Origin: Amycolatopsis aidingensis
Lineage (GTDB): Bacteria > Actinomycetota > Actinomycetes > Mycobacteriales > Pseudonocardiaceae
Reading direction: 5' to 3'
Length of the DNA stretch: 64,000 bases
Assembly: GCF_018885265.1 (NCBI RefSeq)
Contig: NZ_CP076538.1
Location: 2,578,001-2,642,000, forward strand
Part shown: in pieces, positions 3,847-34,870 of the stretch
How positions within the stretch are numbered: position 1 is the stretch's first letter
How the letters are laid out: every line of letters starts with the position of its first letter
The notes under the pieces: generated by a model
Database searches by the model: none
What the model saw: the letters and a program-made list of their open reading frames with translations, nothing else
What the model was told of the DNA's origin: nothing
Program-made: the position numbers and the translations under genes

Positions 3847-5634
3847 ATGGGTGCTGTGGGGTCTCAGTCGAAGAGCGCACTAAATATTTCTGGAATTCGA
3901 AGTTTTGTTGAAGAGCTGGCCGTGGGGCGGCTGGCCTGGGATTTGATCTGCCCGTTTCCGGTGCAGGACGATGCGGACCGCCGGGCAGGTGACCGCGCCA
4001 TTTCCGAACTGTCCGACCTGCTCACCGGGCAGGTCGACGCGGAACGGATCGACCGCGAGCGGCGGCTGCCGGACGGGCTGCTCGAACGGCTCGGCGAGGG
4101 TGGCTGGCTTGCGCTGGCCACACCGCCGGAATCGGGCGGGCGCGGCCTGTCCCCGCACAACGTGTTCCGCGTGGTGCACGCCGCCGCGGGGTGGTCGGTT
4201 CCGGTCGCCCAGGTCATGGCGGTGCAGGCGGCGATCGGGGTCGGCGCGCTGCTGCCCGCGGTGGACGCGGGCCCGTTGCGGTCGTACCTGCTGGAACTGG
4301 TGACCGACGGGGTGCTCTCCGGCTCGGCGGACACCGAGCCCAGCGGTGCGGCCAACCAGGGCAGGGACACGGTTGCGACGCCGGTTGACGATGGTTCCGC
4401 CTACCTGCTGAGCGGCGAGAAGATACACATCGGCAACGGGCCGGTTGCGCACACGTTGATCGTCTCGGCGACCGTGCCGGACGGTGACACCGGTACCCGC
4501 CGGTTGTTCCTCGTGGACACCACCAGTCCCGGGTTCCGGGTCCGGTCCACGCACGAGTTCATGGGCCTGCGCGGTTTCCCGATCGCCGCGCTGGACTTCG
4601 CCGAGGTGCGGGTACCCGCCGAGCACATGCTCCTGGAAGCTCCGGACACCGGCAACAGGCTGACGCCCACCCTGATGCAGTTGGTCATCACCGGCCGGAT
4701 GTACCTGATCGCCGCTCCTTCCCTCGCCCTCGCCCGCCGGTGTGTGCACTGGGCGCGCGAGTTCGCCGAGCCGAGGGTCATCGACGGGCGCCCGCTGGCC
4801 GAGTACGAACTGACCAGGCGACTGATCGCGGACAACGTCGCGGACACCTTCGTCATGGACACCCTGGTGCGCTGGTGCCTCGCCGATACACCGGAAGCGG
4901 TCAACCGGTTGCCCGAGCAGATGGCTGCCAAGAACATCACCTCGGTCACCTGCTGGCGGGTGCTGGACCGGACGATGTCCCTGCTGGCGGGCGAGGGGTT
5001 CGAGACCGCGGACAGCAAGGCGGCCCGGGGCGCGCCCCCGCTGCCACTGGAGCGTGCCTACCGGGACGCTCGCGGCTTCCGGATCTCCGGCGGGGTGGAC
5101 TTCCTGCTCGACTACTGGGCTTCCCAGGTGTCCACCTTCGCCCACTACTACCCGGAGCCGGACAACCTGGCCGAGATCGAGTCGGGCGAGCCGGATGTGT
5201 CCTGGTGCGCCGACACCGCCCTGCACCCGCGGAACCAGGAACACCTCGCCGAGGTGGCTCGCCAGTCCATGCGGTTCGCGCGTACGGCGCTGGCGTTGAG
5301 CCGCAAGCATTCCCGGCAGGAACTGGCAGACAGGCAGCAGCGGCTGGTGGTGCTGAACCGGATTCTGGACGAGCTGGCCACCTCGGCGCTGGTGCTGGCC
5401 AGGGCGGCGTCCACAGGGGGCGCGGAGGCCGAGGACACCCAGCGGCTGGCCGATGTCGCCTGCAGTGCGGCGCGGGTCCGGCTGGACGGGTACTGGACCG
5501 AACTCGCCGAGGGCGAGGTACCGGGGCAGGACACGGCCGACCACGCCGCGGTGGCCGCCACCTGGATGAGCCGCGGGGGCTTCGGCGTGCTCGGCGATGA
5601 CCTGATCGATCCGGACGGGGAGGTGCGGAGTTGA
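3847..5634 (+). CDS. Acyl-CoA dehydrogenase-like epoxyketone warhead enzyme (EpnF/TmcF type)
   Basis: About 595 residues; the frame is open from 3772, with ATGs at 3793 and 3847 and no decisive Shine-Dalgarno, so the start is uncertain. The ACAD fold is clear: N-terminal helical part, flavin-binding middle (DTEPSGAANQGRD, SGEKIHIGNGPV, MGLRGFPIAALDF), and C-terminal ERAYRDARGF. The segment that normally reads IYEGTSE, with the catalytic Glu, reads RISGGVDF here (Gly codon at 5089-5091), so the usual alpha-proton base is absent. A further ~180 residues follow, making it much longer than the usual 380-400. In epoxomicin, eponemycin and TMC-86 pathways a homologous ACAD-like enzyme decarboxylates, desaturates and epoxidises an alpha-dimethyl-beta-keto acid to make the warhead. 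The NRPS start overlaps its stop, so the two are translationally coupled. The assignment rests on family plus context. Confidence 0.85.
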   Translation: MGAVGSQSKSALNISGIRSFVEELAVGRLAWDLICPFPVQDDADRRAGDRAISELSDLLTGQVDAERIDRERRLPDGLLERLGEGGWLALATPPESGGRGLSPHNVFRVVHAAAGWSVPVAQVMAVQAAIGVGALLPAVDAGPLRSYLLELVTDGVLSGSADTEPSGAANQGRDTVATPVDDGSAYLLSGEKIHIGNGPVAHTLIVSATVPDGDTGTRRLFLVDTTSPGFRVRSTHEFMGLRGFPIAALDFAEVRVPAEHMLLEAPDTGNRLTPTLMQLVITGRMYLIAAPSLALARRCVHWAREFAEPRVIDGRPLAEYELTRRLIADNVADTFVMDTLVRWCLADTPEAVNRLPEQMAAKNITSVTCWRVLDRTMSLLAGEGFETADSKAARGAPPLPLERAYRDARGFRISGGVDFLLDYWASQVSTFAHYYPEPDNLAEIESGEPDVSWCADTALHPRNQEHLAEVARQSMRFARTALALSRKHSRQELADRQQRLVVLNRILDELATSALVLARAASTGGAEAEDTQRLADVACSAARVRLDGYWTELAEGEVPGQDTADHAAVAATWMSRGGFGVLGDDLIDPDGEVRS

Positions 5635-8600
5635 CGGAGATCATCCAGATCCCGCTCTCGGTCACCCAGCAGGCCCTGTGGGTGTCCTGGCAGCTCGATC
5701 GCGCGGCGTACCAGAACATGATCGTCACGCCGTTCGCGGTCCGGGGCACCGTCGACCCGGCCCGGTTGGACCGCGCGGTCGCGGCACTCGGCGAACGGTT
5801 CCCGTTGCTACGCGGGGTTGTGCGGCCCGCTCCCGAGGGGCCGGTGTTGTCCTGGGCGGGGCAGCCGCGGTTGCGGCTGCGGGAGCGCGTGTTCGACGAA
5901 CCCATGGAGCAGGCCGTGCGCACCGCCGCCAGGGTGCCCTTCGACCTGGAGCAGGGCCCGCCGAGCCGGTTCGAGTTGCTGCACGCGGGCGGCGAGACCG
6001 TGCTGCTGATCAGCGTGGCACACCTGGTGTACGACGGAATGTCCCTGCTGAACCTGCTGCCCGTCCTCGCCGAGGCCTACCGGGGTGTTCCGCTGCCGCC
6101 GCCTGCGGACCTCGACGACATCCGCGAGTTCAACCTGCGGCAGCACGAGCTGGCCGAGGGCGATGCGGGCGCGGGGCACCGTGAGTTCTGGCGGGAGCAC
6201 CTCGGCACGGATCTCGCCGAACTGCCCGAGCTGACCCTGCCGGCCGGACCCGATCCGGCCGGGGAGTTCCAGATGCGTACCGTCGAGCTCGACCGGGAGC
6301 TCGTGCAGCGGGTGCGGACAGTGGCCAAACAACTGGCGTTGACCTCGACCGTCGTGCTGTACGCGGCTTACCTCGTGTTGCTGCGCCGGCATACCGGGCG
6401 GGACGACCTCGTCGTTTCCATGCCCACGCACGGTCGGCGCGGCCGTCCCGGGCTGCGGGAGGCGGTCGGCTTCTTCTCCAACGCGGTACCGATCCGGCAG
6501 CGCCTCGACGACTCCGACACCTATGCCTCGGCCGCGCAGCGCATCGGCGCGGACATCCGCCGTTGCCTCCGTTTCGCGGATCTGCCCCAGCCGGCGATCC
6601 TGCGCTCCACCGGTGCGCACGGTCCGGCCGAAGCGGTGGTGGGTACCACCATCTTCCAGTACTGGAACTCCAGTGCCCGCGGCGACGTCGACGTCTTCGA
6701 CCACGCGCTGGACGAGGACTGCTCGCTTTCCCTGCTGCCGCCGCACGACGTCGCCGGGTACCGGTTGCAGACCATGGTGCGGGAGGACCGCGACGGGTTC
6801 ACCATGCAGTGGAAGGACACGGCAGGCGAGCTCGGCCTGAGCGCGCTGGACCTGCTGGCCGAGGACTACCTCGCCGTCCTGGACGAACTGGTGACCGATC
6901 CCGATCGCGGGATCGGCCCTGCGGTGCCGGCCGGGCGGGCGGCCGCCCGGGGGTTCGTGCTCACCGGTCGCGCGATGCTGGACCGCCTGCACCCGGTGCA
7001 ACCCGCGGGGGAGCACCCACCGGCCACCCCGCACCAGGAGCGGATGGGTTTCGTCGATCGGTTCGAGAACGGCGTGGTCTACCCAGGCGCGCCGGTGTAT
7101 CACAACCTTCCGCTGGTGCGGTTGCTGTCGTCGGTGCCTGCCGCGGACCGGCTCGCCGAGGAGTTCACCGCGGCGCTGGCCGACCACCCCGTGCTGCGTA
7201 CCAACCTGGTGTTCACCGAACGGGGATTCGAGCAGCAGGTGCACGCCCCGCGGCGGGGTGAGGTGACCTGGTTCGCCGAGCCTGCCGAAGGCGCCGAGCT
7301 GCCGGAGCGGCTGCGCCGCTGGCTCGATCTGCCCTTCGATCTCGGCAAGGACCTGCTGGTCAGGGTGGCCGTACAAACACGAGTGGACGGTTCGGCCTGG
7401 TTGGTGCTTGTCGGGCACCAGGCCGTCGTGGACCGGGCCTCGTTGCGGCTGCTCGCGGCGCGACTCATCGGGGAGACCGTGCCTGCACCGCCCGTGGTGG
7501 AGGTGGACCGGGACCGCGTCGCGCACGACCTCGCGGCGGTGGCGCACCGGCTGAGCGGGGAGATCGAACCGCTACGGCTGCCGGAGAGCAGGCGCCGGGA
7601 CGCCGTGCACGTCTACCGTGAGGACGCGGTCGACCTCACCTCCCCGCCGCCGACCGAGCTCGAGACGCTGGCGGCGGCCGCGGGTGTGAGCACGGCCGCC
7701 GTGCTGCTCTCCACCTTCGGCGCGCTGCTGTCCTGGTACTCCGGCCAGGACGAGCTGGTCATCGGCACCACCCAGCCTGCGCGGAACGAGAGCAACGCCG
7801 GTGCCGTCGGACCACTGTCCACATTGGTTCCGATCAGGCTGCGCACCGGGACGGCCACGCCCTTCCTCGACCTGCTTCGGCAGGCCGAGGCCGAGCTGGA
7901 CTTCGCCCGGCGGCACGACGCCGTACCCTTCGACGACCTCGTCCGGGTGCTGGATCCCGGCAAGGACATGAGCCGGACGGCCCTGTTCGACGTGCTGTTC
8001 AGCTACCTCGATGCCGAGCAGGACGGCGGGCTGAGCGCGGGGCAGGCCCTGCTCGGTTCCGGTGCAGGCAAGTACGACCTGCACCTCGCCCTGCGGCCAC
8101 GGGACGGACGCCAGGAAGGCCGCCTGGTGTTCAACGCGGAGTACTTCGACCGCTCCCGATTCGTCGAGTTCGATGTCCATTTCGGACGTTTGCTGGCTCA
8201 GGCCACGGCCGATCCGGAGGTGACGCTCGGTGCGCTGGACCCGGCAACCGAGGACGAGCGGCGGCGGCAACTGCGGGAATGGAATGACACCGCGAGTGGC
8301 TATCCGGAGATCACGCTGACCGAACTGCTGCTCCGGCAGGCCCGCCGTGCACCGGACGCGACCGCGGTGACCGACGGCGACACCCGGCTGAGCTATCGCG
8401 AACTGATCAGCTCAGCCGAGGAGCTGGCACACGGCCTGGTGGCCGCCGGGGTACGGCCGGGCGACCTGGTCGGCCTGCACCTTGGCCGGGGAACCGGGCA
8501 GGTGACGGCGATCCTCGCGGTGCTGCTGGCCGGCGCGGGCTACCTGCCCGTGGACGTGGACCTGCCGCTGGAGCGCAAGCAGTTCGTGCTCGCCGACGCC

Positions 8601-11600
8601 AGGGTGGACGTGCTGGTCGGCGGCGCGCGGGGAGCGGCGGACGAACTGGAACTGGACAGCGTGCACACGCTGCCCCTCGACGAGTTGACCGGATATCCAC
8701 CCCAGCCGCTGCCGGAGGTCAACCCGGACTCCGCGGCGTACTGCATCTACACCTCGGGTACCACGGGCCGACCCAAGGGTGTGGTGATCAGCCACCGCAA
8801 CGTGGTCCGGTTGCTGGCTCCGGAGGACGTCGGGTTCGACTTCGGCCCTGCCGACGTGTGGACCCTGTTCCACTCCTACCACTTCGACTTCTCGGTATGG
8901 GAGCTGTTCGGCTGCCTTTCCACCGGGGGACGGCTGGTGGTGGTGCACGCCGAGCAGGCGCGGGATGCCGAGCGGTTCGCCGAGCTGCTGGTGCGCGAGC
9001 GGGTCACTGTGCTGAACCAGACCCCCGGCGCCTTCGCCCAGCTGGTGGGTCTCCCGGCCGTGGCGGGCGAGCTCGACCTGCGGTACGTGATCTTCGGTGG
9101 GGACCGGCTCGACCCCGCGCGGATCGCGGACTGGGCCGCCGCGCATCCACAGGTCGCGCTGGTCAACATGTACGGCATCACCGAGGTGACCGTGCATGCC
9201 ACCGCGCACCGGATCACCGCGGCGGAGCTGGCAGGCGGGACCAGCCTCGTCGGTGGCCCGATCCCGACGACCCGGATCTACGTGCTGGACCGGCGCACCG
9301 GGCGCAGGCTGCTGCCGACCGGCGCCGTCGGCGAGGTCTACGTCGGCGGTCCCGGGGTCGCTGACGGCTACCTGCGCAGGCCCGCGCTCACCGCCGAGCG
9401 GTTCGTGCCGAACCCCTTCGCCGCTCCCGGCGAGGCCGACCTGCTGTTCCGCAGCGGGGACCTGGGCCGGTGGTGGCCGGACGGCAGCCTCGAGATCTGC
9501 GGCAGGGCCGATTCCCAGGTCAAGATCCGTGGCTACCGGGTTGAGCTCGGGGAGATCGAGTCCTGCCTCACCCAGCATTCCGCCGTCGGGCAGGCCGTGG
9601 TGTCGCTGCTCGGCGGCTCCGCGGGCGTGCTGGTCGCGTTCGTCGAGACGGCAGCCCAGGTCACCGAGGGCGAGCTCAGAGCACACCTCGTGGCAAGGCT
9701 GCCCGGGTACCTTGTGCCGGCCCGGTATCACCTGCTCAGCAGGATCCCGTTGACCAGCAACGGGAAGCCCGACCGGAAGGCACTCGCCCGGCTGGCGGAG
9801 CGGGCCGCCCCGCAGCAGGCCGAGGCCGACCGGGACGAGCCATCCGGTCCCACCGCGCTCGCCGTGGCCGAGGCATGGGCCGAGCTGCTCGGCGTGACCG
9901 GGTTGACCGCGCGGTCCTCGTTCTTCGAGCTCGGCGGGCACTCGCTGCTCGCGGCCAAGCTGCTGGCCACCCTTTCCGAGCGGGTGGGGGTCGCGCTACC
10001 GATCCGGCTGCTGTTCGAGCATCCGCGCCTGCAGGATCTCGCCGATGCCATCGACGCACTCGCCGCAACCGCGGAGACCCCGGCGGATGCCGGGACGCGG
10101 GACGGCGAACCAGGCACGGCCGAACCCGTCGAGCTGCCAGCATCCAGCTTCCAGGAACGGATCTTCCTCGCCCAGCGGGTCGAGCCGGAAGCGCACCGGT
10201 ATGTCGTACCGTTGCTGTGGCGGGTGTCCGGCACGCTGGACACCGACCGGCTCGCCGGAGCGCTGGCCGCGGTGGTGCGCAGGCACGAGATCCTGCGGAC
10301 CAGGTTCGAGGTGGTCGACGGCACCCTGCGTCAGCGGGTCGGCGAACCGTGGCAACCGGCGCTGGTCGAGGAGGCCGTTCCCGATCTGGACGGCTGGCTG
10401 CGCGATCAGCTGGCCACGCCGATCGATCCGGCCTCCGGGCGACCGTTGCGGTGCGGCCTGGTCTCCGCAGGCGGGCAGCGGGTGTTCGCGATCCTGGTCC
10501 ACCACCTGGCCTGGGACCTCGGCTCCGCGCCGGTGCTGCTCGAGGAACTGCGCGCACAATACGAGTCCGAAAAGGACATTCCGGCACCCGCTCAGTACCG
10601 GCAGTTCGTGGCCGCGCAACAGGCCGCGAGGCAGCGAACGGAGTTCCCGGCCGAGCTGGACTACTGGGCACGCACCCTGCACGGGGCAGCGGCATACCTG
10701 CCACTCCCCGCGCCCGCCGAGGCCGGCCCCTCGGGGGCCGTGCGCGTTCCGTTGCCCGCGGGCCTTTCCCGCAGGCTGGCCGAGTTGCAGACCGGGGCGG
10801 GCGTCTCCTGGTTCATGGCCGCGGCCACCGCGCTCACCGGGGTACTGCACCGGTTCACCGGCGCCGACGATGTGACCATCGGTGTCCCGGTGGACAACCG
10901 GGAGGCCACCGGGCGGGAACGCCTGATCGGGCCCTGTCTGAACACCGTGGTGCTGCGTTCCGAGCAGCCGGCCGGTGGCACGGTCGGCGACCTGCTCAGC
11001 ACCGTGCGGGAGCGGGTCCTCGGCGCGCTGGAGCACCGGCTGACTCCCTTCGAGTCGGTGGTCGAGCACCTCAACCCCGCCCGCAGGCCCGGCTGGACCC
11101 CGTACGCGGACGTGATGCTGAACGTGAACACCGGGTCGGGAACCAAGGGCAGGCTCGGTACCGCGGAGCTGGACCCGTTCACCGTGGACGCGCAGTGGGA
11201 GTACGACACCAAGTTCGGGCTCACCCTCACGGTCACCGAGTCCGATGGCGAAATCGGCGCGATGCTGTCCTACCGGGGCGACCGGATCGGTGCGGCCGAT
11301 GCCCGGCAGCTCGCCACCCTGTTCGGCCGGTTGCTTGCCGCCCTGCCCGAGGTGCTCGACGTGCCACTGGCCACGGTGGACCTGATGGCGCCAGATGAGC
11401 TCGACCGGCTGCTGTTGCTGGAGTCCGGTCCGGCCGCCGCCGAACCCGACTCGGTGCCCGCGATGATCGGGCGGCGCCTGCTGCAGGGCCCGGACCGGCC
11501 CGCGATCAGCTCGTCGACCGGGGAGCTCAGCTATGCCGAGCTCGACCGGCGGGTGACGGCCATGGCACACCGGTTGCGCGCCGCCGCAAGGACAGGCGGC

Positions 11601-13250: not shown

Positions 13251-16200
13251 GTACCGAAGCGATTGCCATCGTCGGTGCCGGAGCACGGATGCCCGGTGCC
13301 TCGAACGTGGCGGAGTTCTGGCGCAACCTGCAGGCCGGAGCCGACACCATCAGCCGGTTCGACCCGGACAGGCTGCGCGCGGCGGGCGTACCGGCTGCGG
13401 AGATCGAGCACCCCGGCTACGTGCCTGCCCGCGGGGTACTGGCCGCCGCGGAGCACTTCGACTGGCGGTTCTTCGGTTACAGCCTTGCCGAGGCGCGGCT
13501 GATCGACCCGCAGCAGCGGGTGTTCCTCGAGGTCTGCTGGGCTGCGTTCACCGAGGCCGGGCTGGATCCCGAGCGGTTCCCCGGCTGGATCGGCGTGTTC
13601 GCCGGATGCGACCTTTCCACCACGGGATCCCGGTCGGCGCCGGAGACGATGGAAGGGCTGATCGGTGCGGAGAAGGACTTCCTCGCCACCAGGGTGGCGT
13701 ACAAGCTGAAGTTGCGCGGCCCGGCGATCAGCGTGCAGACGGCGTGCTCCACCTCGCTGGTCGCCGTGCACCAGGCCTGCCAGAGCCTGCTGAACCACGA
13801 GTGCGACGCCGCGCTGGCCGGCGGGGTGACCCTGTGGCTTCCGCAGGAAACCGGATACCGCTACCAGGAGGACCACATCCTGTCCGTGGACGGCCGGTGC
13901 CGGACCTTCGACGCGGACTCCACCGGCACGGTGTCCAGCAACGGGGCTGGTGTGGTGCTGCTGCGCAGGCTCGAGGACGCGCTCGCCGACGGCGACCGGA
14001 TCATGGCGGTGCTGCGGGGTTCCGCGCTGAACAACGATGGCGGCGAGAAGATCGGCTACACCGCACCCTCGCTGACCGGTCAGCGGGACGTGATCAGGCT
14101 GGCGCTGGCGCAGGCGGACGTTGACCCGGCTGACCTGTCCTATGTGGAGGCACATGGGACCGCGACGCAGCTCGGCGATCCGGTGGAGGTGGCCGCGCTG
14201 ACCTCGGCGTTCCGGTACGCGACCGACCGGGTCGGTTACTGCGGGCTTGGCTCGGTGAAGAGCAACATCGGCCACACCGGGGCGGCCGCAGGGATCGCCG
14301 GGCTGCTCAAGGCCGCGCTCAGCCTCGAGCACCGGGAACTGGTTCCCAGCCTGCACTTCCGGCGACCCAACCCGAAACTGGAACTGGAGTCCTCTCCGTT
14401 CCGGGTGGTCACCGAGAACGAGCCGCTGCCGGAGGACATGCCGGCGCTGGCGGCGGTGAGCTCCTTCGGTATCGGTGGCACCAACGCGCACGCCGTCCTG
14501 GAGGGGCCACCACGGCGAGCGGCGGGGTCCCCGCGCGGCCCGAAGCTGTTCTGCCTTTCCGCGCCGTCCGCCGGCGCGCTGCGCAAGGCGCGTACCGAAC
14601 TGGCCGACCGGCTCACCGAGCGGCCTGCGCCGGATCCGGTCGCGGTTGCGTGGACCCTCGCCGCGGGCAGGCCCGCGTTGCCCTTCCGAACCGCGGTGCC
14701 TGCCGAGGACCTCGATCGGGCCGTGGCGTCGTTGCGGGAACCGGCCGATGCCGTGCCAGCGGCCAGGACCCGCGTCGGGTTCCTGTTCCCCGGCCAGGGC
14801 GCGCTCTACCCGGGGGCGATCGAGGCCTGCTACGAGTCCCTGCCGGTGTTTCGTGAGCTGTTCGACCAGGCGGCCAGGGTGGTGGCCGGGAAGTGGGGGC
14901 TGGACCTGCACGCCGCGCTGGCCGCTCGCGCCCCGGCCGAGCAGCTGGCGGACAGCTTCACCCAGCAGGTCGGCCTGTTCTCGGTCGGCTACGCCCTCGG
15001 GCGGCAACTGCTCGCCTGGGGCATCCGCCCGGCGGCGATGCTGGGGCACAGCGCGGGCGAGTACGTGGCCGCGGCGCTGGCCGGGGTCTGGGATCTGGCC
15101 GCGGGGCTCGAGGTGGTCGGCGAACGCGCCCTGGCCATGCGAGCCGGGCCACCTGGCGGGATGCTCGCCGTCTACGCCGCACCGGAGGACCTGCCGCCGC
15201 GGCACGGGCTGGAGGTGGCCACCGAGGGGCCGGGGCAGGTGGTGCTGGCCGGCAGCACCGAGCGGGTGCACCGCCTGCACGCCGAGCTGGCCGATGCCGG
15301 GATCGAGGCCAGGGTGATCGACGCCGACCGGCCGTTCCACACCGAGCGGATGCGACCGGCGACCGATGGTCTGCGCGCGGTGCTGGCCCGGCTCCCGGCC
15401 GGGCGCGCCGAACTTCCGGTGGTGTCCAACCTGACCGGCCGTCTTGCCGAACCGGACCGTCTTGCCGACCCCGGCTACTGGTCCGAGCACCTGTGCTCGC
15501 CGGTACGCCTCACCGAGGGCATGGCCACCGTACTCGGCCAGGGGTGTGAGGTGCTGATCGAACTCGGACCGGGGCAGACGATGACCGGCGGGCTGCGGCG
15601 GCACGAGCGGTGGAGCGAGTCCGGCCTCGCCGTCCCGTTCATCGGCAGGCAGGCAGAACCCCGGCGGGACGCCCTGCTGGGCGCGCTGGGCAGGCTGTGG
15701 GAGGCAGGACTCCCACTCGACTGGGCCGCGTTGTTCGAGGAACCGCCGGTGCGCTGCTGGCTCCCACCGGTTCCGCTGGACTCCGAGCCGATCCCGGAGC
15801 GGCAGGCGCAGGCGGGTGGGCAACGCCCCGCGGCGCAGGCCGGCATGGTGGTGGTCGGGGACCAGCCGGCCAGGGTGGCCGCCCTCGCCGAGGAACTGGT
15901 GGACGGCGGCGCCACCGTGGTCGGTTCGCACGCGCCCAGCACGGCAAAACCACTGGCGGACCCGGTGATCTGGCCGGAGCGGGCCGAGCGCACGGTGGCC
16001 GACCGGCCGGACCTGACCGACGCGCTGCGCGAGTTCTCCGCAGGCCTGGCAGGCCAGGTGGTGCTGGACTCGGGCGTGGCCGCGCTGACCGCGGACGGTC
16101 GCCTGCCGAGGCTGGCCGGGTTCCTGCTGGACCTCCTGCGCGCGCGTGGCTGGCTGACCGGCGAGGATCGCCCGGTTGCCGACCTCGGCGCGCGGGTGGC

Positions 16201-18139
16201 GGCGGCACTGGCCAGGGCAGGGGAACTCGACGAGGTGGCCGGCCTGCGGGAACTGCTGCGGCACTGCGCGGCCCATTACCCCGACGTGTTCGCAGGCCGG
16301 GTCGAGCCGGTTTCGGTGCTCTACCCGGACGGTTCGGACGACCTGCTCAGCCGCTGTCTGCGGGACAACGCCGTGCCGCTCGGCGGCAGCGGACACTGCC
16401 TGGAGGCGGTGCGGCGGTCGATTCCGGCCTGGTACGAACGCCGGGGCGGTGAGCCGTTGCGCGTGCTGGAGATCGGCGCAGGCCGGGGCGGGCTCACCTG
16501 GCCCCTGCTGGACGCCTGGGCCGGCCGGGACCAGGTGACCTACGACGTCACCGAGGTCAGCCCGATGCTGGTGGCCCAGCTGCGGCGCCGGGCGGCCGAG
16601 CGGGGTGAACGCGGGGTGCGTGCCAGGACCTTCGACATCACGGCGGATCCGGTCCAGCAGGGCCTGATCCCCGGCAGCTATGACCTGATCCTCGGCTACA
16701 ACGTGGTGCATGTGGCTCCTTCGGTACCGGCCGCGCTGGGCAACCTGCGCCGGTTGCTGCGGGAGAACGGAACGCTCTGCCTGATCGAGCTGACCAGGGC
16801 CGAGTCCTGGACCCACCTGGTGTGGGGCCTGGCGCCCGGCTGGTGGAACGCCGAAGACCACCTGCGCGGGTCCTCCCCGGAACTGGCTCTCACCGGCTGG
16901 CACCGGGCGTTGACCGAGGCCGGCTTCGCGCCGCAACCCGATACCGGCCCGGCGGGGGCGGAGCACGCCGTGCTGGTGGCCACCCTCGCCGACCGGGACG
17001 GCCTTGGCGACCCGGCCGCCGACGTCGCCAGGCAGGCCACGGGGGCCGAACCGGTCATCGTGCACCGGGAGCCCACCGCGCCCCCCGCGCCGCGGAACTC
17101 CGGCCCACCGGAGACCACCCCTGCCGGGCAGCCGGACGCACTGGTGGACACGCTGACCGAACTGTGGTGCGACGCCCTCGGCGTGACCTCGGCCGCGGCG
17201 GAGGACGACTTCTACCGGCTGGGTGGCGAGTCCCTCGGCCTGGTACACCTGCTCGGGCAGGTGCGGGAGCGCACCGGGGTACGGGTGCAGCTGACCGATT
17301 TCGCCACCCGGCCCACCTTCGGCGTGCTGCTGCGATGGGTACGCGAGCAGCAGGAAACGCGCTCCCCGAGCACCCCGCCCAACCTGGTGCGGCTGGCCGA
17401 GCACGGGGATGGCGTGCCGCTGGTGTTCACCGCACCCGGTGCCGGAAGCACGCTGTGCTACCGGCATCTGGTGCCGCAGCTGGGTGCGCGGGAACCGGTG
17501 TACGGCCTGGAGACGCCCGGATTGCACGACGGAGTCGTGCCACTGACCCGGATCGAGGACCTGGCAGCCGCGAACCTGGAGCTGCTGCGCGAGATCCGGC
17601 CGAACGGACCGTACCGGCTCGCCGGGTGGTCGGTAGGCGCCATGGTCGCGCACGAGATGGCCGCCCGGTTGCTGGCCGACGGGGAGCGGGTGGACTCGCT
17701 GCTGTGCATCGACGGGTTCGTGCCCCGCACCTGGGGTGCGCCGGTCGGGGCGCTACCCGGTTACCTCGGCCGCGGCCTGTGGTATCAGCTCGAGACGGCC
17801 CTGCCTGCCGGGTTGCTCGGCCGGGACGGCAATCTCGGCGACGCGCTCGGCCTCGCCGGGCAGCGGCAGGGCGCGGAGTTCGTCCGGGTCTACCGGGCGA
17901 ACGTGCGCGCATTGCTGCGGTACGTCCCCCGGCCGATCGACTGTGCCGCGGTGATCTTCAAAACCGGGTTGACGGCAAGGGTGCGGCGCCGGGTCGAGCG
18001 TTCCCTGCGGGGCACCTACCGGCGCGGCGCCAGGGTGGTCGGCGTTCCCGGTGACCACCACTCCGTGCTGGCCGCGGAACACGTGGACGTGCTGGCCGAG
18101 CGAATGCGCGAAGTACTCGATCACAGGGGGTCGATATGA
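13247..18139 (+). CDS. Type I polyketide synthase module KS-AT-MT-ACP-TE
   Basis: 1,630 residues, one extension module plus release. KS: Cys167 in QTACSTS, then EAHGTATQLGDP and KSNIGHTGAAAG. AT: Ser602 in GHSAGEY; the specificity segment DRPFHTERM resembles the HAFH motif of malonyl rather than YASH of methylmalonyl domains. C-methyltransferase: VLEIGAGRGGLT at about residues 1072-1083. ACP: Ser1329 in GGESLG. TE: Ser1462 in GWSVG with a late GDHHSVL histidine. No ketoreductase or dehydratase is present, so the beta-ketone survives. Epoxyketone pathways use this layout: the MT dimethylates the malonyl-derived alpha-carbon and the TE releases an alpha-dimethyl-beta-keto acid for the ACAD-like enzyme. 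It overlaps both neighbours by 4 bp, so it is part of one operon with the NRPS. Confidence 0.93.
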   Translation: MSTEAIAIVGAGARMPGASNVAEFWRNLQAGADTISRFDPDRLRAAGVPAAEIEHPGYVPARGVLAAAEHFDWRFFGYSLAEARLIDPQQRVFLEVCWAAFTEAGLDPERFPGWIGVFAGCDLSTTGSRSAPETMEGLIGAEKDFLATRVAYKLKLRGPAISVQTACSTSLVAVHQACQSLLNHECDAALAGGVTLWLPQETGYRYQEDHILSVDGRCRTFDADSTGTVSSNGAGVVLLRRLEDALADGDRIMAVLRGSALNNDGGEKIGYTAPSLTGQRDVIRLALAQADVDPADLSYVEAHGTATQLGDPVEVAALTSAFRYATDRVGYCGLGSVKSNIGHTGAAAGIAGLLKAALSLEHRELVPSLHFRRPNPKLELESSPFRVVTENEPLPEDMPALAAVSSFGIGGTNAHAVLEGPPRRAAGSPRGPKLFCLSAPSAGALRKARTELADRLTERPAPDPVAVAWTLAAGRPALPFRTAVPAEDLDRAVASLREPADAVPAARTRVGFLFPGQGALYPGAIEACYESLPVFRELFDQAARVVAGKWGLDLHAALAARAPAEQLADSFTQQVGLFSVGYALGRQLLAWGIRPAAMLGHSAGEYVAAALAGVWDLAAGLEVVGERALAMRAGPPGGMLAVYAAPEDLPPRHGLEVATEGPGQVVLAGSTERVHRLHAELADAGIEARVIDADRPFHTERMRPATDGLRAVLARLPAGRAELPVVSNLTGRLAEPDRLADPGYWSEHLCSPVRLTEGMATVLGQGCEVLIELGPGQTMTGGLRRHERWSESGLAVPFIGRQAEPRRDALLGALGRLWEAGLPLDWAALFEEPPVRCWLPPVPLDSEPIPERQAQAGGQRPAAQAGMVVVGDQPARVAALAEELVDGGATVVGSHAPSTAKPLADPVIWPERAERTVADRPDLTDALREFSAGLAGQVVLDSGVAALTADGRLPRLAGFLLDLLRARGWLTGEDRPVADLGARVAAALARAGELDEVAGLRELLRHCAAHYPDVFAGRVEPVSVLYPDGSDDLLSRCLRDNAVPLGGSGHCLEAVRRSIPAWYERRGGEPLRVLEIGAGRGGLTWPLLDAWAGRDQVTYDVTEVSPMLVAQLRRRAAERGERGVRARTFDITADPVQQGLIPGSYDLILGYNVVHVAPSVPAALGNLRRLLRENGTLCLIELTRAESWTHLVWGLAPGWWNAEDHLRGSSPELALTGWHRALTEAGFAPQPDTGPAGAEHAVLVATLADRDGLGDPAADVARQATGAEPVIVHREPTAPPAPRNSGPPETTPAGQPDALVDTLTELWCDALGVTSAAAEDDFYRLGGESLGLVHLLGQVRERTGVRVQLTDFATRPTFGVLLRWVREQQETRSPSTPPNLVRLAEHGDGVPLVFTAPGAGSTLCYRHLVPQLGAREPVYGLETPGLHDGVVPLTRIEDLAAANLELLREIRPNGPYRLAGWSVGAMVAHEMAARLLADGERVDSLLCIDGFVPRTWGAPVGALPGYLGRGLWYQLETALPAGLLGRDGNLGDALGLAGQRQGAEFVRVYRANVRALLRYVPRPIDCAAVIFKTGLTARVRRRVERSLRGTYRRGARVVGVPGDHHSVLAAEHVDVLAERMREVLDHRGSI

Positions 18140-20085
18140 CATCCGATCCGGACCAGTTCTCGATCGTCGCCAACGCGGCGGGTTCGGTCAGCGTGTGGCC
18201 CGCGGGCGAACCGCTGCCGGACGGGTGGCGGGCCGCCGGTCCCAGCGGTTCCCTTGCGGAGTGCCGGGAGTGGATCGATCAGCACGCGACCCTGGCCCCG
18301 GCCCCGGTCCCCGGAGTGGGGTCGGCGACGTTGGTCAGCATGTTCGCCGCCACCGTGGCGCGCCACCCGCAGCGCCCGGCGGTGAATGACGGGACGCGCC
18401 GGTACAGCTACGCGGAACTGGACGCCAGGGCCGAGGAGCTGGCCCGGCGGCTGCGCGACCGCGGTATCGGACGGGAGGACCGCGTGGTGTGTTACCTCGA
18501 CCGTGGCGCACCGATGTTCGTGGCGATGCTGGGCATCCTGAAGGCCGGTGCGGCCTACGTACCGACCGACACCCGCTACCCGGACGGGCGGCGGGATCAG
18601 CTCATCACGCAGAGCAGGCCGGCCGCGCTGATCACCAGCCCCGAGCGGGCGGGGCAGCTTGCCTCGCTCGAGGTCGAACGCATCGAGCTGGACGGGGACG
18701 GGCAGCAGCCCGCGCGGGTGGAGGTCGCAGTCGAAGCCGGTCCCCGGCCGGAGGACGCCGCCGCGGTGCTGTTCACCTCCGGCTCCTCCGGCGAGCCCAA
18801 AGCGGTCGTCCTGCAGCACGGGAACCTGGTGAGTTTCGCGGGGGACGCGGCACTGCCGGAGCTGGAGCCCGGTGACCGGGTCGCCCAGGTGTCCAGCGTG
18901 TCCTTCGATGCCTTCCACTTCGAGACCTGGTGCACCCTGGCGGCCGGCGCCGAGATCGTGGTGTTGCCCGCCATGCCGGATCTGATCGGCGGGGACATCC
19001 GGCGGGAGCTCAAACGACGCCAGATCACCGCGATGCTGGCGCCGACCATGGCCGTCAACCACGTGCTGCGGGAAGATCGGGACACCTTCGGCATGCTGCG
19101 CATCCTGCACACCGGGGGTGACGTACTCGCCCCGGCCGCCTGCCGGGAACTGCTGGACAGCGGATACCAGGGCGAGTTCTACAACCTCTATGGCCCGACC
19201 GAGGGCACCACCGCCTGCACGGCGCACCCGGTCACCAAGGCGGACCTTGCCGCGGACACCGTTCCGATCGGCACGGAGCTGGCCGGGTCCGCGATCTACC
19301 TCCTCGACGCCGCGCTGCGCGAGGTGCCTGCCGGAACGGTTGGCGAGCTGCACATCGGCGGATCCGGGGTCACGAGGGGCTACCTGGACCAGCCCGGCCT
19401 GACCGCCGAGCGGTTCCGGCCCGATCCGTTTGCCGGCGCGGGTTCCCGGATGTACGCCACCGGTGACCTTGCGATGCGCCGGGAGGACGGGGTGCTCGAG
19501 TACCACGGCCGGATCGACGACCAGGTCAAGATCCGTGGCCATCGGGTGGAACCGGGCGAGGTGGAACGGATCCTCGGCAGGCACCCTGAGGTCCGTGAGG
19601 TCGCCGTGCTGGTGACCGGCGAGGGACAGGACAAGCACCTGGTGGCGCTGGTGGGGCACTACGGCCGGGTCACCCCGCGGGAACTGCGGGACCACGCCGT
19701 CGAGCGGATGCCGGAGTTCATGGTGCCGAGCTCGTTCGTGCTGGTGGACGGGATTCCCGCGAACGACCACGGCAAGCGTGACGTCGCGCGGCTGCGGGAG
19801 CTCGCCGACGAGCACCTGCGCAGGCGGGACAGCCTGGTCGCCCCCGGCGACGAGATCGAGCGCTACCTGGTCGAGCTCTGGGAGGACCTGCTCGCGGTCG
19901 AGCGGATCGGCACCACCGACGACTTCTTCTCCCTCGGCGGCAACTCGCTGCAGGCCTTCCGGGTGCAGCGCCGGATCAGTCGCGAGCTGGATGTGCAACT
20001 CGAGCCCAAGGACGTGCTGGCCAACAGCGAACTCCGCGCGCTGGCCACCCTGATCCGGGGCAGGAAGGGTTCGGTGACACCGTGA
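18136..20085 (+). CDS. MbtH-A-T stand-alone NRPS protein (NikP1-like)
   Basis: 649 residues. An N-terminal MbtH-like domain of about 60 residues (FSIVANAAGSVSVWPAGEPL, then GWRAAGPSGS and ECREWIDQHA) is fused to an adenylation domain (FTSGSSGEPKAVV, NLYGPTEGTT, YATGDLAMR) and a thiolation domain (Ser604 in GGNSLQ). There is no C domain. Specificity residues read approximately DAFLHGLTA plus Lys, which I cannot assign with confidence. MbtH-like proteins activate A domains, and a fused copy means this A domain carries its own partner. Immediately downstream and overlapping are a P450 and a thioesterase, the arrangement of NikP1-NikQ-NikP2 and NovH-NovI, in which a carrier-bound amino acid is beta-hydroxylated and then released. 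Alternatively it loads the first residue of the peptide. It starts within the stop of the PKS gene (ATGA). Confidence 0.9.
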   Translation: MTSDPDQFSIVANAAGSVSVWPAGEPLPDGWRAAGPSGSLAECREWIDQHATLAPAPVPGVGSATLVSMFAATVARHPQRPAVNDGTRRYSYAELDARAEELARRLRDRGIGREDRVVCYLDRGAPMFVAMLGILKAGAAYVPTDTRYPDGRRDQLITQSRPAALITSPERAGQLASLEVERIELDGDGQQPARVEVAVEAGPRPEDAAAVLFTSGSSGEPKAVVLQHGNLVSFAGDAALPELEPGDRVAQVSSVSFDAFHFETWCTLAAGAEIVVLPAMPDLIGGDIRRELKRRQITAMLAPTMAVNHVLREDRDTFGMLRILHTGGDVLAPAACRELLDSGYQGEFYNLYGPTEGTTACTAHPVTKADLAADTVPIGTELAGSAIYLLDAALREVPAGTVGELHIGGSGVTRGYLDQPGLTAERFRPDPFAGAGSRMYATGDLAMRREDGVLEYHGRIDDQVKIRGHRVEPGEVERILGRHPEVREVAVLVTGEGQDKHLVALVGHYGRVTPRELRDHAVERMPEFMVPSSFVLVDGIPANDHGKRDVARLRELADEHLRRRDSLVAPGDEIERYLVELWEDLLAVERIGTTDDFFSLGGNSLQAFRVQRRISRELDVQLEPKDVLANSELRALATLIRGRKGSVTP

Positions 20086-21302
20086 GTGCCCCGGCCATCG
20101 ACCTCACCGATCCGGACGCCTTCGTGCACGGCCGCCACCACGAGATGCTGGCCTGGCTGCGGCGGCACGATCCGGTGTACTGGCACCCGACCGGCGCGGG
20201 CGGCGGTTTCTGGGCATTGACCACCTATCGGGACATATTCGACGCCTATAACGATCACTCCGGTCTGAGCTCGAGCGGCGGGCCGATGCTGGGTGGTTCC
20301 TTCTCCAGCGGCGAGGTGGACACGGCCGCGAACCGGATGCTGGTGGCCTCCGACCCGCCCCGGCACCGGATGTTGCGGCATGCCATGCACACGGTCTTCG
20401 GCCCTGAGTTCGTGGACCGCGTCGCGCGGGAGGTCACCGCCGGGGTGAATGCCGTGGTCGATCGTGCGCTGGCCGACGGTGGCTGCGACTTCGCCACCGA
20501 TATCGCGCCGGAACTGCCTGCCCGTGCGCTGGTCGCGATGGTCGGCATCGGTGAGCAGGACGCGCACACCCTGATCAACATGACCCGCCGGATGATCGGG
20601 TTCCGGGATCCCAACTGGGTGGACACCGCGGAGGACGAGCGGCTCCGGCTGGCGATGATCCAGGCCGAGATCTTCGAGTTCTTCGCGGATATCCTGCGCG
20701 AGCGGCGCCGCAAACCGGGGTCGGACCTGGTCAGCGTGCTGGCCGAGGCGGAGGTCAACGGGCACCGTCTGCCCGAGGAGGACATCCTCTACAACTGCAT
20801 GAACGTGGCGGTCGGCGGGAACGAGACCTCGTCCTACACGGCCGTGGCCGGGGTGCTCGCGCTGATCGAGAACCCGGACCAGCACCGGCTGCTGCTGGAC
20901 CGGCCCGACCTGCTCGACTCCGCGGTGAACGAGATCCTGCGCTGGGCCACCAGCAACGCCTACGTGCTGCGCCGCGCGACCAGGGACGTGTCCATCGGGG
21001 ACAAGGTCATCACCGCAGGCCAGCCGGTGACGTTGTGGAACGTCTCGGCGAACATGGACGAGCGGCAGTTCGACCGGCCGGAGGAGTTCCGCCTGGACCG
21101 CTCGCCGAACCGGCATCTCGCCTATGGCGTCGGCATTCACCGCTGCATCGGCTCGGTGGTCGCGCAGGTCGAGCTGCCCATCCTGTTCCGGAGGCTGGCG
21201 CAGAGCAGGGTCCGGTTCGCCCTCGACGGGGAGATCACCCGGCTGCGGTCCAACTTCATCCAGGGCATCACCGCGCTGCCGGTCACCATGGAGGCCTCGT
21301 GA
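20082..21302 (+). CDS. Cytochrome P450
   Basis: 406-residue soluble bacterial P450. Visible motifs: I-helix AVGGNETSSY (oxygen-activating acid-Thr pair), ExxR in EILR, and the haem-binding loop AYGVGIHRCIG with Cys355. The GTG start overlaps the previous stop (GTGA) and its own stop overlaps the next GTG, so it is locked between the MbtH-A-T protein and the thioesterase. By analogy with NikQ/NovI it probably hydroxylates the beta-carbon of the amino acid tethered to the preceding carrier domain. An alternative is side-chain oxidation of the mature epoxyketone, as in eponemycin, where a leucine-derived residue is hydroxylated. It needs ferredoxin and reductase partners that are not in the window. 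Confidence 0.92.
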   Translation: MSAPAIDLTDPDAFVHGRHHEMLAWLRRHDPVYWHPTGAGGGFWALTTYRDIFDAYNDHSGLSSSGGPMLGGSFSSGEVDTAANRMLVASDPPRHRMLRHAMHTVFGPEFVDRVAREVTAGVNAVVDRALADGGCDFATDIAPELPARALVAMVGIGEQDAHTLINMTRRMIGFRDPNWVDTAEDERLRLAMIQAEIFEFFADILRERRRKPGSDLVSVLAEAEVNGHRLPEEDILYNCMNVAVGGNETSSYTAVAGVLALIENPDQHRLLLDRPDLLDSAVNEILRWATSNAYVLRRATRDVSIGDKVITAGQPVTLWNVSANMDERQFDRPEEFRLDRSPNRHLAYGVGIHRCIGSVVAQVELPILFRRLAQSRVRFALDGEITRLRSNFIQGITALPVTMEAS

Positions 21303-22057
21303 AACTCGGTGCCGGCCAGCTGGTGCTGGAGAACCCCGGTGCGCGGCTGCGGGTGTTGCTGCTGCATCACGCGGGCGGCTCGGCGATGTCCCTGCTGCCG
21401 CTGGCGAAACGGCTGCAGGCCGACTGCGAGCCCGTGCTGCTGGAGCTGCCGGGGCGTGGGCTGCGCTCGGCCGAGCCACCGGCGCCGGACTTCGCCGCCG
21501 CACTGGAGGTCCTGCTCCCCGAGGTCACCGCGGCGGTCGACCGGCCGACCCTGATCCTCGGGCACAGCCTCGGTGCGCTGATCGCGCACAGCCTGGCGGT
21601 CGGCCTGCCGGAGCGGGAACGCGAGCGGGTGCGGGCGGTGGTCGTGTCGGCCTTCCCGGCACCCGCGGTGGCCGCCAGGGTGGCTACCCACCCCGCGGAG
21701 CCGTTCCGGGTGCGGACCCGCGAGCAGTTGCTCGTCGAGCTACAGGACCGGGGTGGCTGCCCACCCGAGGTGTTCGAGGACCAGGACACCCTGGAGCATG
21801 CCGTCACGCTGATGGGACAAGACCTGCATCTCGCCGACACCTACCGCCCGCCGCCTGCCGGGGCAGGCAACGCGGCCGCCTACCATGTCTGGTTCGGCCG
21901 GGACGATCCGCACCTGGCGCCGGAGGAACTCCAGGAGTGGGCGGCCGCCACCGGCCTGCCGCCCATCATCCGGGAGTTCCCCGGTGAGCACTTCTACCTG
22001 CTGCGGAGCGAGCAGGCGGGGCAGGCGTTACGGGCCCTGGTGACCGATCTCTCCTGA
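21299..22057 (+). CDS. Type II thioesterase (alpha/beta hydrolase)
   Basis: 252 residues from GTG 21299; the frame is open further upstream inside the P450, but the GTGA overlap with the P450 stop fixes the start. Nucleophile Ser90 in GHSLGAL, oxyanion region LLLHHAGGSA, and C-terminal catalytic His231 in GEHFYL are present, with the acidic residue likely in GRDDPHL. This is the family of stand-alone NRPS/PKS-associated thioesterases. Two roles are possible: editing of misprimed carrier domains, or, as for NikP2, release of a beta-hydroxylated amino acid from the MbtH-A-T carrier. It is the last gene of the overlapping operon. The proteasome gene starts 124 bp later. Confidence 0.88.
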   Translation: MKLGAGQLVLENPGARLRVLLLHHAGGSAMSLLPLAKRLQADCEPVLLELPGRGLRSAEPPAPDFAAALEVLLPEVTAAVDRPTLILGHSLGALIAHSLAVGLPERERERVRAVVVSAFPAPAVAARVATHPAEPFRVRTREQLLVELQDRGGCPPEVFEDQDTLEHAVTLMGQDLHLADTYRPPPAGAGNAAAYHVWFGRDDPHLAPEELQEWAAATGLPPIIREFPGEHFYLLRSEQAGQALRALVTDLS

Positions 22058-22102
22058 CCGGGCGGGCCTGCGGCATACTGGTGTGCGGGCGCGTGCCGAC
22101 GA

Positions 22103-22185
22103 TAGGATGATCCAGAGTCTCGGCGCGAGGCGACACCGTGAGTGATGGACGACGAAGACAGATGAACGACAAGGACGCATTGTGA
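22103..22185 (+). promoter_or_regulatory. Leader of the proteasome resistance gene, with possible short uORF
   Basis: TAGGAT at 22103-22108 fits a -10 element, though no convincing -35 is seen. A 15-codon frame runs from GTG 22139 (or ATG 22163 within it) to a TGA at 22183-22185 and overlaps the GTG start of the proteasome gene. AAGGA at 22171-22175 serves as Shine-Dalgarno. The overlap would couple translation if the short frame is used; this is unproven. Confidence 0.3.
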
Positions 22186-22979
22186 ACTCACCGGCACAGC
22201 AGCCGCCCTCGTACTCATTCCCCGCTCTGATGTCGGTCGGTGACTCGTCGTTCTTCCGGTTGGTGCAGGAACACGCGCCGCAGACCCTGCGCCGCTCGGA
22301 CGAGGCTCCCGTCGACCTGCCGTATGCGCACGGGACCACCATTTTCGCACTGCGCTACCGGGACGGTGTCGTTGTTGCCGGTGACCGGCGCGCGACGACC
22401 GGAAATCTCATCGCCCAACGCGACCTGCGTAAGGTCCAGGCCGCGGACAGCCATTCGTGTATTGCTTTCGCCGGCTCGGTCGCCATGGGGAAGGAAATGG
22501 TGTCGCTCTTTCAGCTGGAGCTCGAGCACTACGAGAAGCTGGAAGGCGTCGAACTGAGTTTTCCGGCCAAGGTCAACCGGGTTTCGGTGATGCTGCGCGG
22601 TAATCTGCAGCAGGCCATGCAGGGGCTCGCCGCGGTGCCGGTGTTCGCGGGCTGGGACAAGCTGGAGCACGTCGGTCGTATCTTCACCTTCGACGTGGCG
22701 GGTTCGCCGTCGGAGGAACACGAGTACGGCGGCTCGGGCTCCGGCTGGCACTTCGCCAAGGGGACCCTGAAGAAGCGCTGGCGGGCCGGGCTCGACCGGA
22801 GCGAGGCCGTGCGCATCGCGGTGGAGGCGTTGTTCGACGCGGCCGAAGAGGACACCGCCACCGGCGGCCCGGATGCCCCGCGCAGGCTGTACCCCACGGT
22901 GGCCGTCGTCACCGAGGACGGGTACGCCGAAGTCGGCGAGGAGGAGGTGGCCGGCTACGCGGCCGACCTGCCGGCCTAG
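22182..22979 (+). CDS. prcB: Self-resistance 20S proteasome beta subunit (PrcB paralogue)
   Basis: 265 residues, GTG start 6 nt after AAGGA. An N-terminal propeptide of 51 residues ends in HG, so autocleavage exposes Thr52 (mature Thr1) in HGTTIFALRY. Asp17 (GDRRATTG) and Lys33 (RDLRKV) of the mature protein, both needed for catalysis, are conserved, so the subunit should be active. The S1-pocket segment reads IAFAGSVAMG, giving Phe45 and Val49 where most beta subunits have Met/Ile45 and Ala49. The salinosporamide self-resistance subunit SalI carries the same two changes, M45F and A49V. No prcA, pup or other proteasome gene is adjacent, unlike the housekeeping locus, so it must assemble with PrcA encoded elsewhere. 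Its place directly after the epoxyketone operon makes target modification the natural reading. The stop codon abuts an IS630 element. Confidence 0.95.
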   Translation: MNSPAQQPPSYSFPALMSVGDSSFFRLVQEHAPQTLRRSDEAPVDLPYAHGTTIFALRYRDGVVVAGDRRATTGNLIAQRDLRKVQAADSHSCIAFAGSVAMGKEMVSLFQLELEHYEKLEGVELSFPAKVNRVSVMLRGNLQQAMQGLAAVPVFAGWDKLEHVGRIFTFDVAGSPSEEHEYGGSGSGWHFAKGTLKKRWRAGLDRSEAVRIAVEALFDAAEEDTATGGPDAPRRLYPTVAVVTEDGYAEVGEEEVAGYAADLPA

Positions 22980-24088
22980 TGTCCTGCGCCTGAAATGCGT
23001 TGTAGATATCGGGCGAGGGAGTCGAGGATCTCTTCGGCGGTCTTGCGCCAGACGAAGGGTTTGGGGTCGGCGTTCCACCGCTGGATCCAGTCGCGGACGT
23101 CCTTCTCCAATCCCGCCACACTGGTGTGGGCTCCGCGGCGGGTGAGCTGGTCGGTGAGGTAGCCGAACCAGCGCTCCACTTGGTTGATCCACGACGACCC
23201 GGTCGGGGTGAAATGCACATGGAAGCGCGGATGCCGTGCCAGCCACTCGTTGACGATCGGTGTTTTGTGGGTGGCCAGGTTGTCGCAGACCAGGTGCACG
23301 TCGAGGTCGGCGGGCACCGCCTTGTCGATGCTGGTGAGGAACTTCTTGAACTCGGTGGCGCGGTGGCGGCGATGCAACTCGGTGATGACCGTGCCATCGG
23401 CGATGTTGAACGCCGCGAACAGGCTGGTCGTGCCATGGCGAGCGTAGTCGTGGGTGCGTCGCTCCGGCATGCCCGGCATCATCGGCAGGACCGGCTGGGA
23501 CCGATCCAACGCCTGCATCTGGGACTTCTCGTCGACACACAGCACCACCGCCCGCTCGGGCGGATTGTGATACAGCCCGACAACATCCACGACTTTGCGC
23601 ACGAACAGCGGATCCGTCGAGAGTGTGAACCCGTCCACCACATGGGGCTTGAGGTCGAAACGCCGCCAGATCCTGCCCACAGTCGAGCGCGACAGCCCGG
23701 TGCGCTCGGCCATCGAAGCCCGCGACCAATGCGTGGCGTTGCGCGGCGTCTGTTCCAGAGTCAAGGCAACCACTTCCTCGACCTGGTCCAGCAGGATCGA
23801 CGGCGGACGCCCCGGCCGCGGCTCGTCAGCCAACCCGGCCAAGCCATGCTCGATGAACCGACCCCGCCACTTGGCCACCGTCGGCACCGACACCCCCACA
23901 GCGGCAGCCACATCCTTATTGAACGCACCCGGCTCCGCACACGCCAGCACAATCCGACACCGCAACGCATACGCCTGCGTCGACGTCGCCGCCCGCGCCC
24001 CACGCACCAACTCCCGACGATCAGCCTCGCTCACCGTCAACTCAGCCTTCTTCGGCCGACCGATCCGCGCCATCCCCGAACCATACAT
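22976..24088 (-). CDS. IS630-family transposase
   Basis: 370 residues in one frame. An N-terminal helix-turn-helix (DVAAAVGVSVPTVAKWRGRF) and a second winged HTH (SRASMAERTGLSRSTVGRIW) are followed by a DDE catalytic core: VLCVDEKSQMQAL, HLVCDNLATHK and FTPTGSSWINQVERWF supply Asp, Asp and Glu. It acts in the cytoplasm on its own 16-bp ends with TA duplication. The stop codon (complement of 22976-22978) is made from the CTAG target, so the transposase and the convergent proteasome gene terminate on the same four bases. It appears full length and intact. Confidence 0.93.
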   Translation of the reverse strand: MYGSGMARIGRPKKAELTVSEADRRELVRGARAATSTQAYALRCRIVLACAEPGAFNKDVAAAVGVSVPTVAKWRGRFIEHGLAGLADEPRPGRPPSILLDQVEEVVALTLEQTPRNATHWSRASMAERTGLSRSTVGRIWRRFDLKPHVVDGFTLSTDPLFVRKVVDVVGLYHNPPERAVVLCVDEKSQMQALDRSQPVLPMMPGMPERRTHDYARHGTTSLFAAFNIADGTVITELHRRHRATEFKKFLTSIDKAVPADLDVHLVCDNLATHKTPIVNEWLARHPRFHVHFTPTGSSWINQVERWFGYLTDQLTRRGAHTSVAGLEKDVRDWIQRWNADPKPFVWRKTAEEILDSLARYLQRISGAGH

Positions 24089-32474: not shown

Positions 32475-32514
32475 GGCCGGGCGCACGGCCGTACCTCAGA
32501 GAGGCGGAAGCGCG

Positions 32515-33534: not shown

Positions 33535-33590
33535 CCCGGTCCGCCTTCGCCCGAGCGCGAACGCGCCGGTCACATCGGGATGCGCCAGGA

Positions 33591-33650: not shown

Positions 33651-33689
33651 GCCCGGCCCCCGCCGCCGACAAGCATCAAGCGGAGTTGT

Positions 33690-34859: not shown

Positions 34860-34870
34860 CGAACAAACTC

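Follow-up and report, generated by a model that had tools for sequence, protein, structure and literature searches.

Epoxyketones, the template of carfilzomib, are proteasome inhibitors for which several biosynthetic systems have been described. In epoxomicin biosynthesis, the warhead enzyme EpxF depends on Arg273 for decarboxylation and on Ser406 for oxygenation, and its S406A variant halts at an enone that does not inhibit the proteasome (PMC12624316). Eponemycin carries a 4,5-dehydroleucine whose formation requires EpnJ, consisting of an MbtH-like protein (MLP), an adenylation (A) domain and a peptidyl carrier protein (PCP), together with the cytochrome P450 EpnK, with the type II thioesterase EpnB probably acting in release (PMC9943649). 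Landepoxcin products are made by S. albus AR412 (PMC8009326), and 17 related clusters, nine of them with a proteasome beta subunit, have been described, including a named orphan cluster of Actinocrispum (PMC8988807). Moreover, a landepoxcin-like cluster with 30-70% gene similarity is listed for Amycolatopsis aidingensis YIM 96748T (PMC8685341). Here, we analyzed a stretch of 64,000 nucleotides from the chromosome of this species (hereafter the window; positions 2578001-2642000 of a single contig of 7,657,695 bp), whose cluster we take to be the one listed. Our results indicate that the window very probably holds a cluster for an epoxyketone proteasome inhibitor, akin to those of epoxomicin, eponemycin and landepoxcin. 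The class is known and the cluster has already been noted at the annotation level; what our analysis adds is a probably exported oxidase. The cluster is complete, has its own predicted resistant target and belongs to a cultivated type strain whose genome has been sequenced in full.

The core genes all lie on the plus strand. A gene for an EpxF-type acyl-CoA dehydrogenase (ACAD)-like warhead enzyme (3847..5634) is followed by those for a nonribosomal peptide synthetase (NRPS; 5631..13250), a polyketide synthase (PKS; 13247..18139), an MbtH-A-T protein (18136..20085; T, thiolation domain), a cytochrome P450 (20082..21302) and a type II thioesterase (TE; 21299..22057). Reading the junctions directly, we found 4-bp start/stop overlaps at the five consecutive junctions between 3847 and 22057, and a further 124 bp separate the TE gene from that of an extra proteasome beta subunit (22182..22979). 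All reading frames of the cluster are open. Junctions and Pfam domains bear out the gene set, coordinates and chaining given in a preliminary description of this DNA; its extent of 3847..22979 fits the core genes and leaves out an oxidase gene at 2053..3660, which accompanies the cluster in three further genomes.

The warhead enzyme carries the Pfam domains Acyl-CoA_dh N/M/1, and its top match among known structures was EpxF (PDB 9gn5_A, E=1.4e-171; runner-up 1.3e-24), which at 49-50% identity is also the nearest characterised ACAD compared. In a tree of 41 rows, with EpxF as the characterised reference and EpnF and TmcF not among the sequences, the window ACAD and EpxF shared, at a support of 100/98, a clade of nine rows whose other members came from Actinocrispum, Spongiactinospora and genus g87 (five rows, loci G753, G1017, G964, G1133 and G805; probably Streptomyces). 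A position away from the warhead enzymes, which would have spoken against the preliminary description, was thus not observed. Eight further ACAD rows were omitted from the tree as near duplicates or through thinning of the outgroup. An ordinary ACAD was ruled out, as seven such rows, lacking Arg273 as well as Ser406, separated from the EpxF-type rows at 100/100. Alignment showed that both residues essential in EpxF are kept in the window ACAD, which is identical to EpxF at nine of 11 checked residues. Judged from its sequence, the enzyme would form an epoxyketone from a dimethyl-beta-keto acid. Ser406 is present in all nine rows of the EpxF clade, and the 16-row sister clade has 12 Ala, three Ser and one Leu at this position; the residue counts omit ten loci in which no frame was found (L118-L120, L122-L127 and L129), which are also out of the tree except for L119 (same gene as L073).

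As an observation on the wider family, Ala occupies the Ser406 position in natural EpxF-family ACADs of L036-L043, L046, L047, L049-L051, L053-L055, L060, L061, L006, L073, L116 and L121. Since the S406A variant of EpxF goes no further than the enone (PMC12624316), these enzymes may do the same, in which case vinyl ketones, or epoxidation by a different enzyme, may be expected of the clusters concerned (Corallococcus, Actinomadura, Nonomuraea, Catenulispora and others). The idea that Ser406 versus Ala406 predicts a linked beta subunit was not used, as the evidence is mixed. In its favor, the ACAD gene has a beta subunit gene no more than about 20 kb away in the window, in Actinocrispum (L056) and in both Spongiactinospora (L034 and L035), as well as at the sister-clade Ser406 loci L044/G781 and G1132; on the other side, none was found in the 20-40 kb read at the Ser406 loci of g87. 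In one Ala406 genome, of Actinomadura (G792), the extra beta copy is located on a contig other than that of the ACAD, so that this genome speaks neither for nor against linkage.

Scanning the NRPS with Pfam revealed three condensation (C) stretches, two A and two T domains, giving the order C1-C2-A1-T-C3-A2-T. Using signature positions and code meanings that we presume to be the usual ones, the codes read DFWNIGMVH for A1 (Thr), DGWFTGAVV for A2 (Leu-like) and DAFLHGLTA for the stand-alone A domain of the MbtH-A-T protein, so that the Thr-Leu sequence predicted in the preliminary description holds as a first reading, with a Thr code followed by one that is only Leu-like. The A1 code is identical in the window, Actinocrispum (L056), Spongiactinospora rosea (L034), G753 and G964, where the codes of G964, G1017 and G1133 come from a pattern reading that skipped some position-278 residues and some domains. 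The catalytic His is present in C1 and C3 and lost in C2 (about 7017-8264), in which HHxxxDG is changed to HQAVVDR. A pattern scan covering 16 regions detected the altered motif, which lies upstream of the Thr-type A domain, in the window and at G753 and G1017, and an alignment showed it as HQAVVDH in Actinocrispum; it was not seen in Spongiactinospora rosea, G964, G1133 or G805. Being common to four clusters, the change is not decay of this strain alone. The PKS comprises KS, AT, C-methyltransferase (MT), ACP and TE domains in Pfam, each with its motifs present, and no ketoreductase match was obtained in the same scan. Its MT domain keeps the S-adenosylmethionine (SAM) motif VLEIGAGRGG, and in this respect, too, the expectation of the preliminary description stands. 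An ACAD, an NRPS and a terminal, C-methylating, ketoreductase-less PKS with a TE, accompanied by a beta subunit gene, are what that description had read as a pathway of the epoxyketone type that carries its own target gene, and our results support this reading, with the target gene in a predicted self-resistance role.

The genome has prcBA at 3.96 Mb and, away from it, the cluster copy of the beta subunit gene (Pfam Proteasome, 6.6e-36), and the presence of prcBA ruled out the cluster copy as the main proteasome gene. The cluster copy keeps Thr1, Asp17 and Lys33, which we take to be the catalytic residues of the proteasome, and it should therefore be active. We compared 29 distinct beta subunits (36 rows, seven duplicates removed) from the window genome and 18 genomes with ACADs of the family; one of 19 genomes searched, Corallococcus G779, returned no beta match. 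Ile45 and Ala49 are found in all 17 copies linked to prcA, i.e. with prcA within the fetched 1.5 kb flanks. The 12 copies lacking prcA in these flanks have Phe45/Val49 (eight, including those of the window and the Actinocrispum cluster), Tyr45/Val49 (two) or Ala45/Gly49 (two, the in-cluster copies of both Spongiactinospora genomes). The resistance beta subunit of the salinosporamide producer S. tropica carries Met45Phe and Ala49Val, and leukaemia cells resistant to bortezomib have changes at these two positions, too (PMC5721123). The window copy is thus a predicted self-resistance target and probably protects the producer as such. In Spongiactinospora rosea, two unusual beta subunits lie less than 25 kb apart (L102:8069-8833 and L034:8678-9430; Tyr45/Val49 and Ala45/Gly49), and the search of this genome returned no Ile45/Ala49 copy. 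Phe45/Val49 beta subunits without prcA in the fetched flanks were also seen in other genomes (L074, L080, L093, L095 and L099) and may mark other proteasome-inhibitor clusters.

The genes for the MbtH-A-T protein, the P450 (Pfam p450) and the TE (Pfam Thioesterase; a single TTA codon near its 3' end) follow the PKS gene in a row and, comparing domains with the published description, have the same architecture as EpnJ, EpnK and EpnB. The preliminary description was mistaken in counting this cassette as a departure from the known clusters, since eponemycin has the same set (PMC9943649). By analogy, the product of the window cassette would be 4,5-dehydroleucine, with the P450 predicted to act on a carrier-bound amino acid like EpnK and the TE predicted to have an EpnB-like role. 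G1133 and G1017, which likewise belong to the EpxF clade, each have an A-T gene next to a relative of the P450 (36% and 30%).

Upstream of the ACAD gene, on the same strand, lies the gene of a flavin adenine dinucleotide (FAD) oxidase of the BBE/TamL type (2053..3660; FAD_binding_4 and BBE in Pfam), whose frame is open from 1870 and likely starts at 2053. Its closest structure matches are TamL (2.4e-166), the hexose oxidase 2wdw (2e-165), which we take to be Dbv29, AknOx (2.5e-165) and CrmK (4.3e-146). His (GGH) and Cys (GWCP) align with those of TamL, and presumably serve in bicovalent FAD attachment. The bicovalent oxidase that the preliminary description had placed nearby is therefore real, and is probably a cluster member rather than merely a neighbor, since genes 60-70% identical to it recur beside the ACAD and beta subunit in Actinocrispum (L056) and both Spongiactinospora (L034 and L035). 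The five g87 loci gave no relative in the vicinity of the ACAD (E 1e-3; 40 kb each for G753, G1017, G964 and G1133, 20 kb for G805). In the Spongiactinospora rosea stretches read, the cassette P450 and TE were not found, suggesting that the oxidase need not depend on them. Judged by eye, its N-terminus is twin-arginine-like (MPEHNRRSILRNTAF), as are those of the L056, L034 and L035 oxidases, and the enzyme is probably exported.

Among its relatives, TamL converts an alcohol to a ketone, and NapU, secreted and bearing a twin-arginine translocation (Tat) signal, activates and then inactivates its antibiotic (PMC11375781). The oxidase may thus perform a late, probably extracellular, oxidation. 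The more specific proposal that it acts last and outside the cell, either oxidizing an alcohol (e.g. that of the Thr side chain, or a prodrug form of the warhead that is an epoxy alcohol) or destroying excess product, is drawn by analogy and we regard it as speculative and rather unlikely. If true, the producer would pair its resistant proteasome with an extracellular step that activates or inactivates the product, in the manner of NapU and naphthyridinomycin, and an epoxyketone subclass would be defined by an oxidized Thr residue or by passage through a prodrug. The main text of PMC11375781 on NapU contains neither the word epoxyketone nor the word proteasome, and neither the recurring oxidase nor the change in the C domain is mentioned in those parts of the published epoxyketone-cluster accounts on which we draw. 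In any case, the recurring oxidase offers a way to ask whether some producers finish or disarm their inhibitor outside the cell.

From the above we infer a pathway, including its starter, leucine modification and resistance, as follows. The MbtH-A-T protein would load an aliphatic amino acid, most likely Leu, which the P450 would oxidize while carrier-bound, either by 4,5-desaturation as EpnK or by hydroxylation, before the type II TE releases the modified amino acid. The NRPS would couple Thr to an acyl starter, probably supplied by fatty-acid synthesis, and extend the chain by the Leu-derived residue, and the PKS would add malonate and methylate C2 twice, its TE releasing an acyl-Thr-Leu (or modified Leu) dimethyl-beta-keto acid. 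The EpxF-like ACAD is predicted to decarboxylate, desaturate and epoxidize this acid to the epoxyketone. In a fraction of the producer's proteasomes, the Phe45/Val49 beta subunit would stand in for the sensitive one, and the probably exported TamL-like oxidase would carry out a late oxidation. The product is possibly a new congener.

Several observations weigh against this reading. The window ACAD differs from EpxF at two of the 11 checked residues (Gln412 to Leu, Glu490 to Gln), and at five further EpxF-clade loci the 20-40 kb read contained no beta subunit. Thr is also not predicted throughout this ACAD clade, as the code of the first A domain is another one in G1133 and departs at one position in G1017. 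The cluster genes include no KASIII/ACP starter pair (EpnD/E), the fused MbtH part was not detected in the Actinocrispum stretches (E 1e-3), and neither the window nor the 20 kb upstream contains a second relative of the P450 (E 1e-3), for which reason an EpnI-type hydroxymethyl warhead is not expected. The code of the stand-alone A domain is not a familiar Leu code. This last point also favors a reading in which the cassette yields a beta-hydroxylated amino acid and not 4,5-dehydroleucine, and among chains of known structure the P450 matched two CYP125MRCA chains best, followed by 4l0e (2.4e-76) and 3mgx (8.8e-62), which we take to be P450sky and OxyD, hydroxylases of carrier-bound amino acids at the beta position. 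As the same set of MLP-A-PCP, P450 and type II TE serves 4,5-dehydroleucine in eponemycin (PMC9943649), we consider beta-hydroxylation a serious but not the favored option.

A proteasome-targeting product other than an epoxyketone would result if the ACAD stopped at the enone, giving a vinyl ketone, or if the extra oxidase altered the warhead. Ala at the Ser406 position is indeed common in the wider family (12 of the 16 sister-clade rows) and the S406A variant of EpxF ends there, but the window ACAD has both Ser406 and Arg273 and groups with EpxF, and because the enone is no proteasome inhibitor (PMC12624316), the altered beta subunit would then have no evident purpose; we regard this outcome as very improbable. 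Hardly more probable is a silent or damaged cluster that makes nothing and in which the beta subunit has been kept by chance beside a transposase. In the parts on which we draw, the genome paper of the strain names other compounds and, among the metabolites, no epoxyketone (PMC8685341), and the transposase gene abuts the beta gene. Against damage speak the open frames with their 4-bp overlaps, the retained ACAD essential residues and PKS motifs and the catalytic His in two of the three C domains, whereas silence in the laboratory is common and differs from damage.

We took the right edge of the cluster to be this transposase gene (22976..24088, minus strand; DDE_3, HTH_32 and HTH_29), which converges on the stop codon of the beta gene. 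In the 20 kb 5' of the window, a simple script called 13 open reading frames, and the seven scanned included no obvious cluster gene (acyltransferase, kinase, phosphoenolpyruvate mutase, methyltransferase, sigma factor, NADH-dehydrogenase-like and molybdopterin enzymes). Further downstream in the window, at 30924-44218, are genes for a GMC oxidoreductase, an O-methyltransferase, two Acyl-CoA_dh_2 flavoproteins, an epoxide hydrolase, an MFS transporter, a DUF899 protein and a class III aminotransferase, possibly a separate pathway. A tRNA-Gly called by ARAGORN at 17030-17109, within the PKS gene, is probably a false positive.

An ACAD match below 1e-100 was obtained in three of 397 genomes of an order-wide sample, the window genome included and no other genome of its genus among them, and a match at 1e-120 in three of 396 genomes of a phylum sample, again with its own; in the genus of G520, 22 of 392 genomes had a match at 1e-100.

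Comparison with known systems places the window as follows. TamL, 2wdw, AknOx and CrmK resemble the window oxidase as high-scoring matches, TamL also in the His and Cys positions. The epoxomicin cluster differs in its tetrapeptide product and in having no beta subunit (PMC8988807). EpxF shares its essential Arg and Ser with the window ACAD. Salinosporamide, a beta-lactone, belongs to a different inhibitor class with a different biosynthesis. Its cluster nevertheless resembles the window in SalI, an extra in-cluster beta subunit (PMC6804068) with Phe45 and Val49 (PMC5721123). The landepoxcin cluster has a beta subunit, following the statement that only the epoxomicin cluster lacks one (PMC8988807). 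The eponemycin and TMC-86A clusters (epn/tmc) share with the window the ACAD-NRPS-PKS core, the cassette of MLP-A-PCP, P450 and type II TE, and a beta subunit, EpnC/TmcC (PMC9943649, PMC8988807). In contrast to them, the window has a predicted Thr instead of Ser, three C domains instead of two, and an oxidase that goes unmentioned in the passages describing epn/tmc in these two papers; neither an EpnD/E starter pair nor a second P450 of the EpnI type was found in it. The closest counterpart is the orphan cluster of Actinocrispum wychmicini DSM 45934 (NZ_SLWS01000004.1; L056 and L101), with all eight genes, the tandem C start, the oxidase, the main-NRPS codes DFWNIGMVH and DGWFTGAVV and an in-cluster Phe45/Val49 beta subunit. 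Protein identities are 53% for the beta subunit, 70% for the oxidase, 69% for the ACAD, 68% for the NRPS, 65-71% for the PKS, 72% for the A-T protein, 78% for the P450 and 58% for the TE, a recurrence of the gene set at 53-78% that is beyond chance. The two clusters differ in the A-T protein, where no MbtH part was detected in Actinocrispum (E 1e-3), and in the position of the beta gene, which lies upstream of the oxidase gene in Actinocrispum and downstream of the TE gene in the window.

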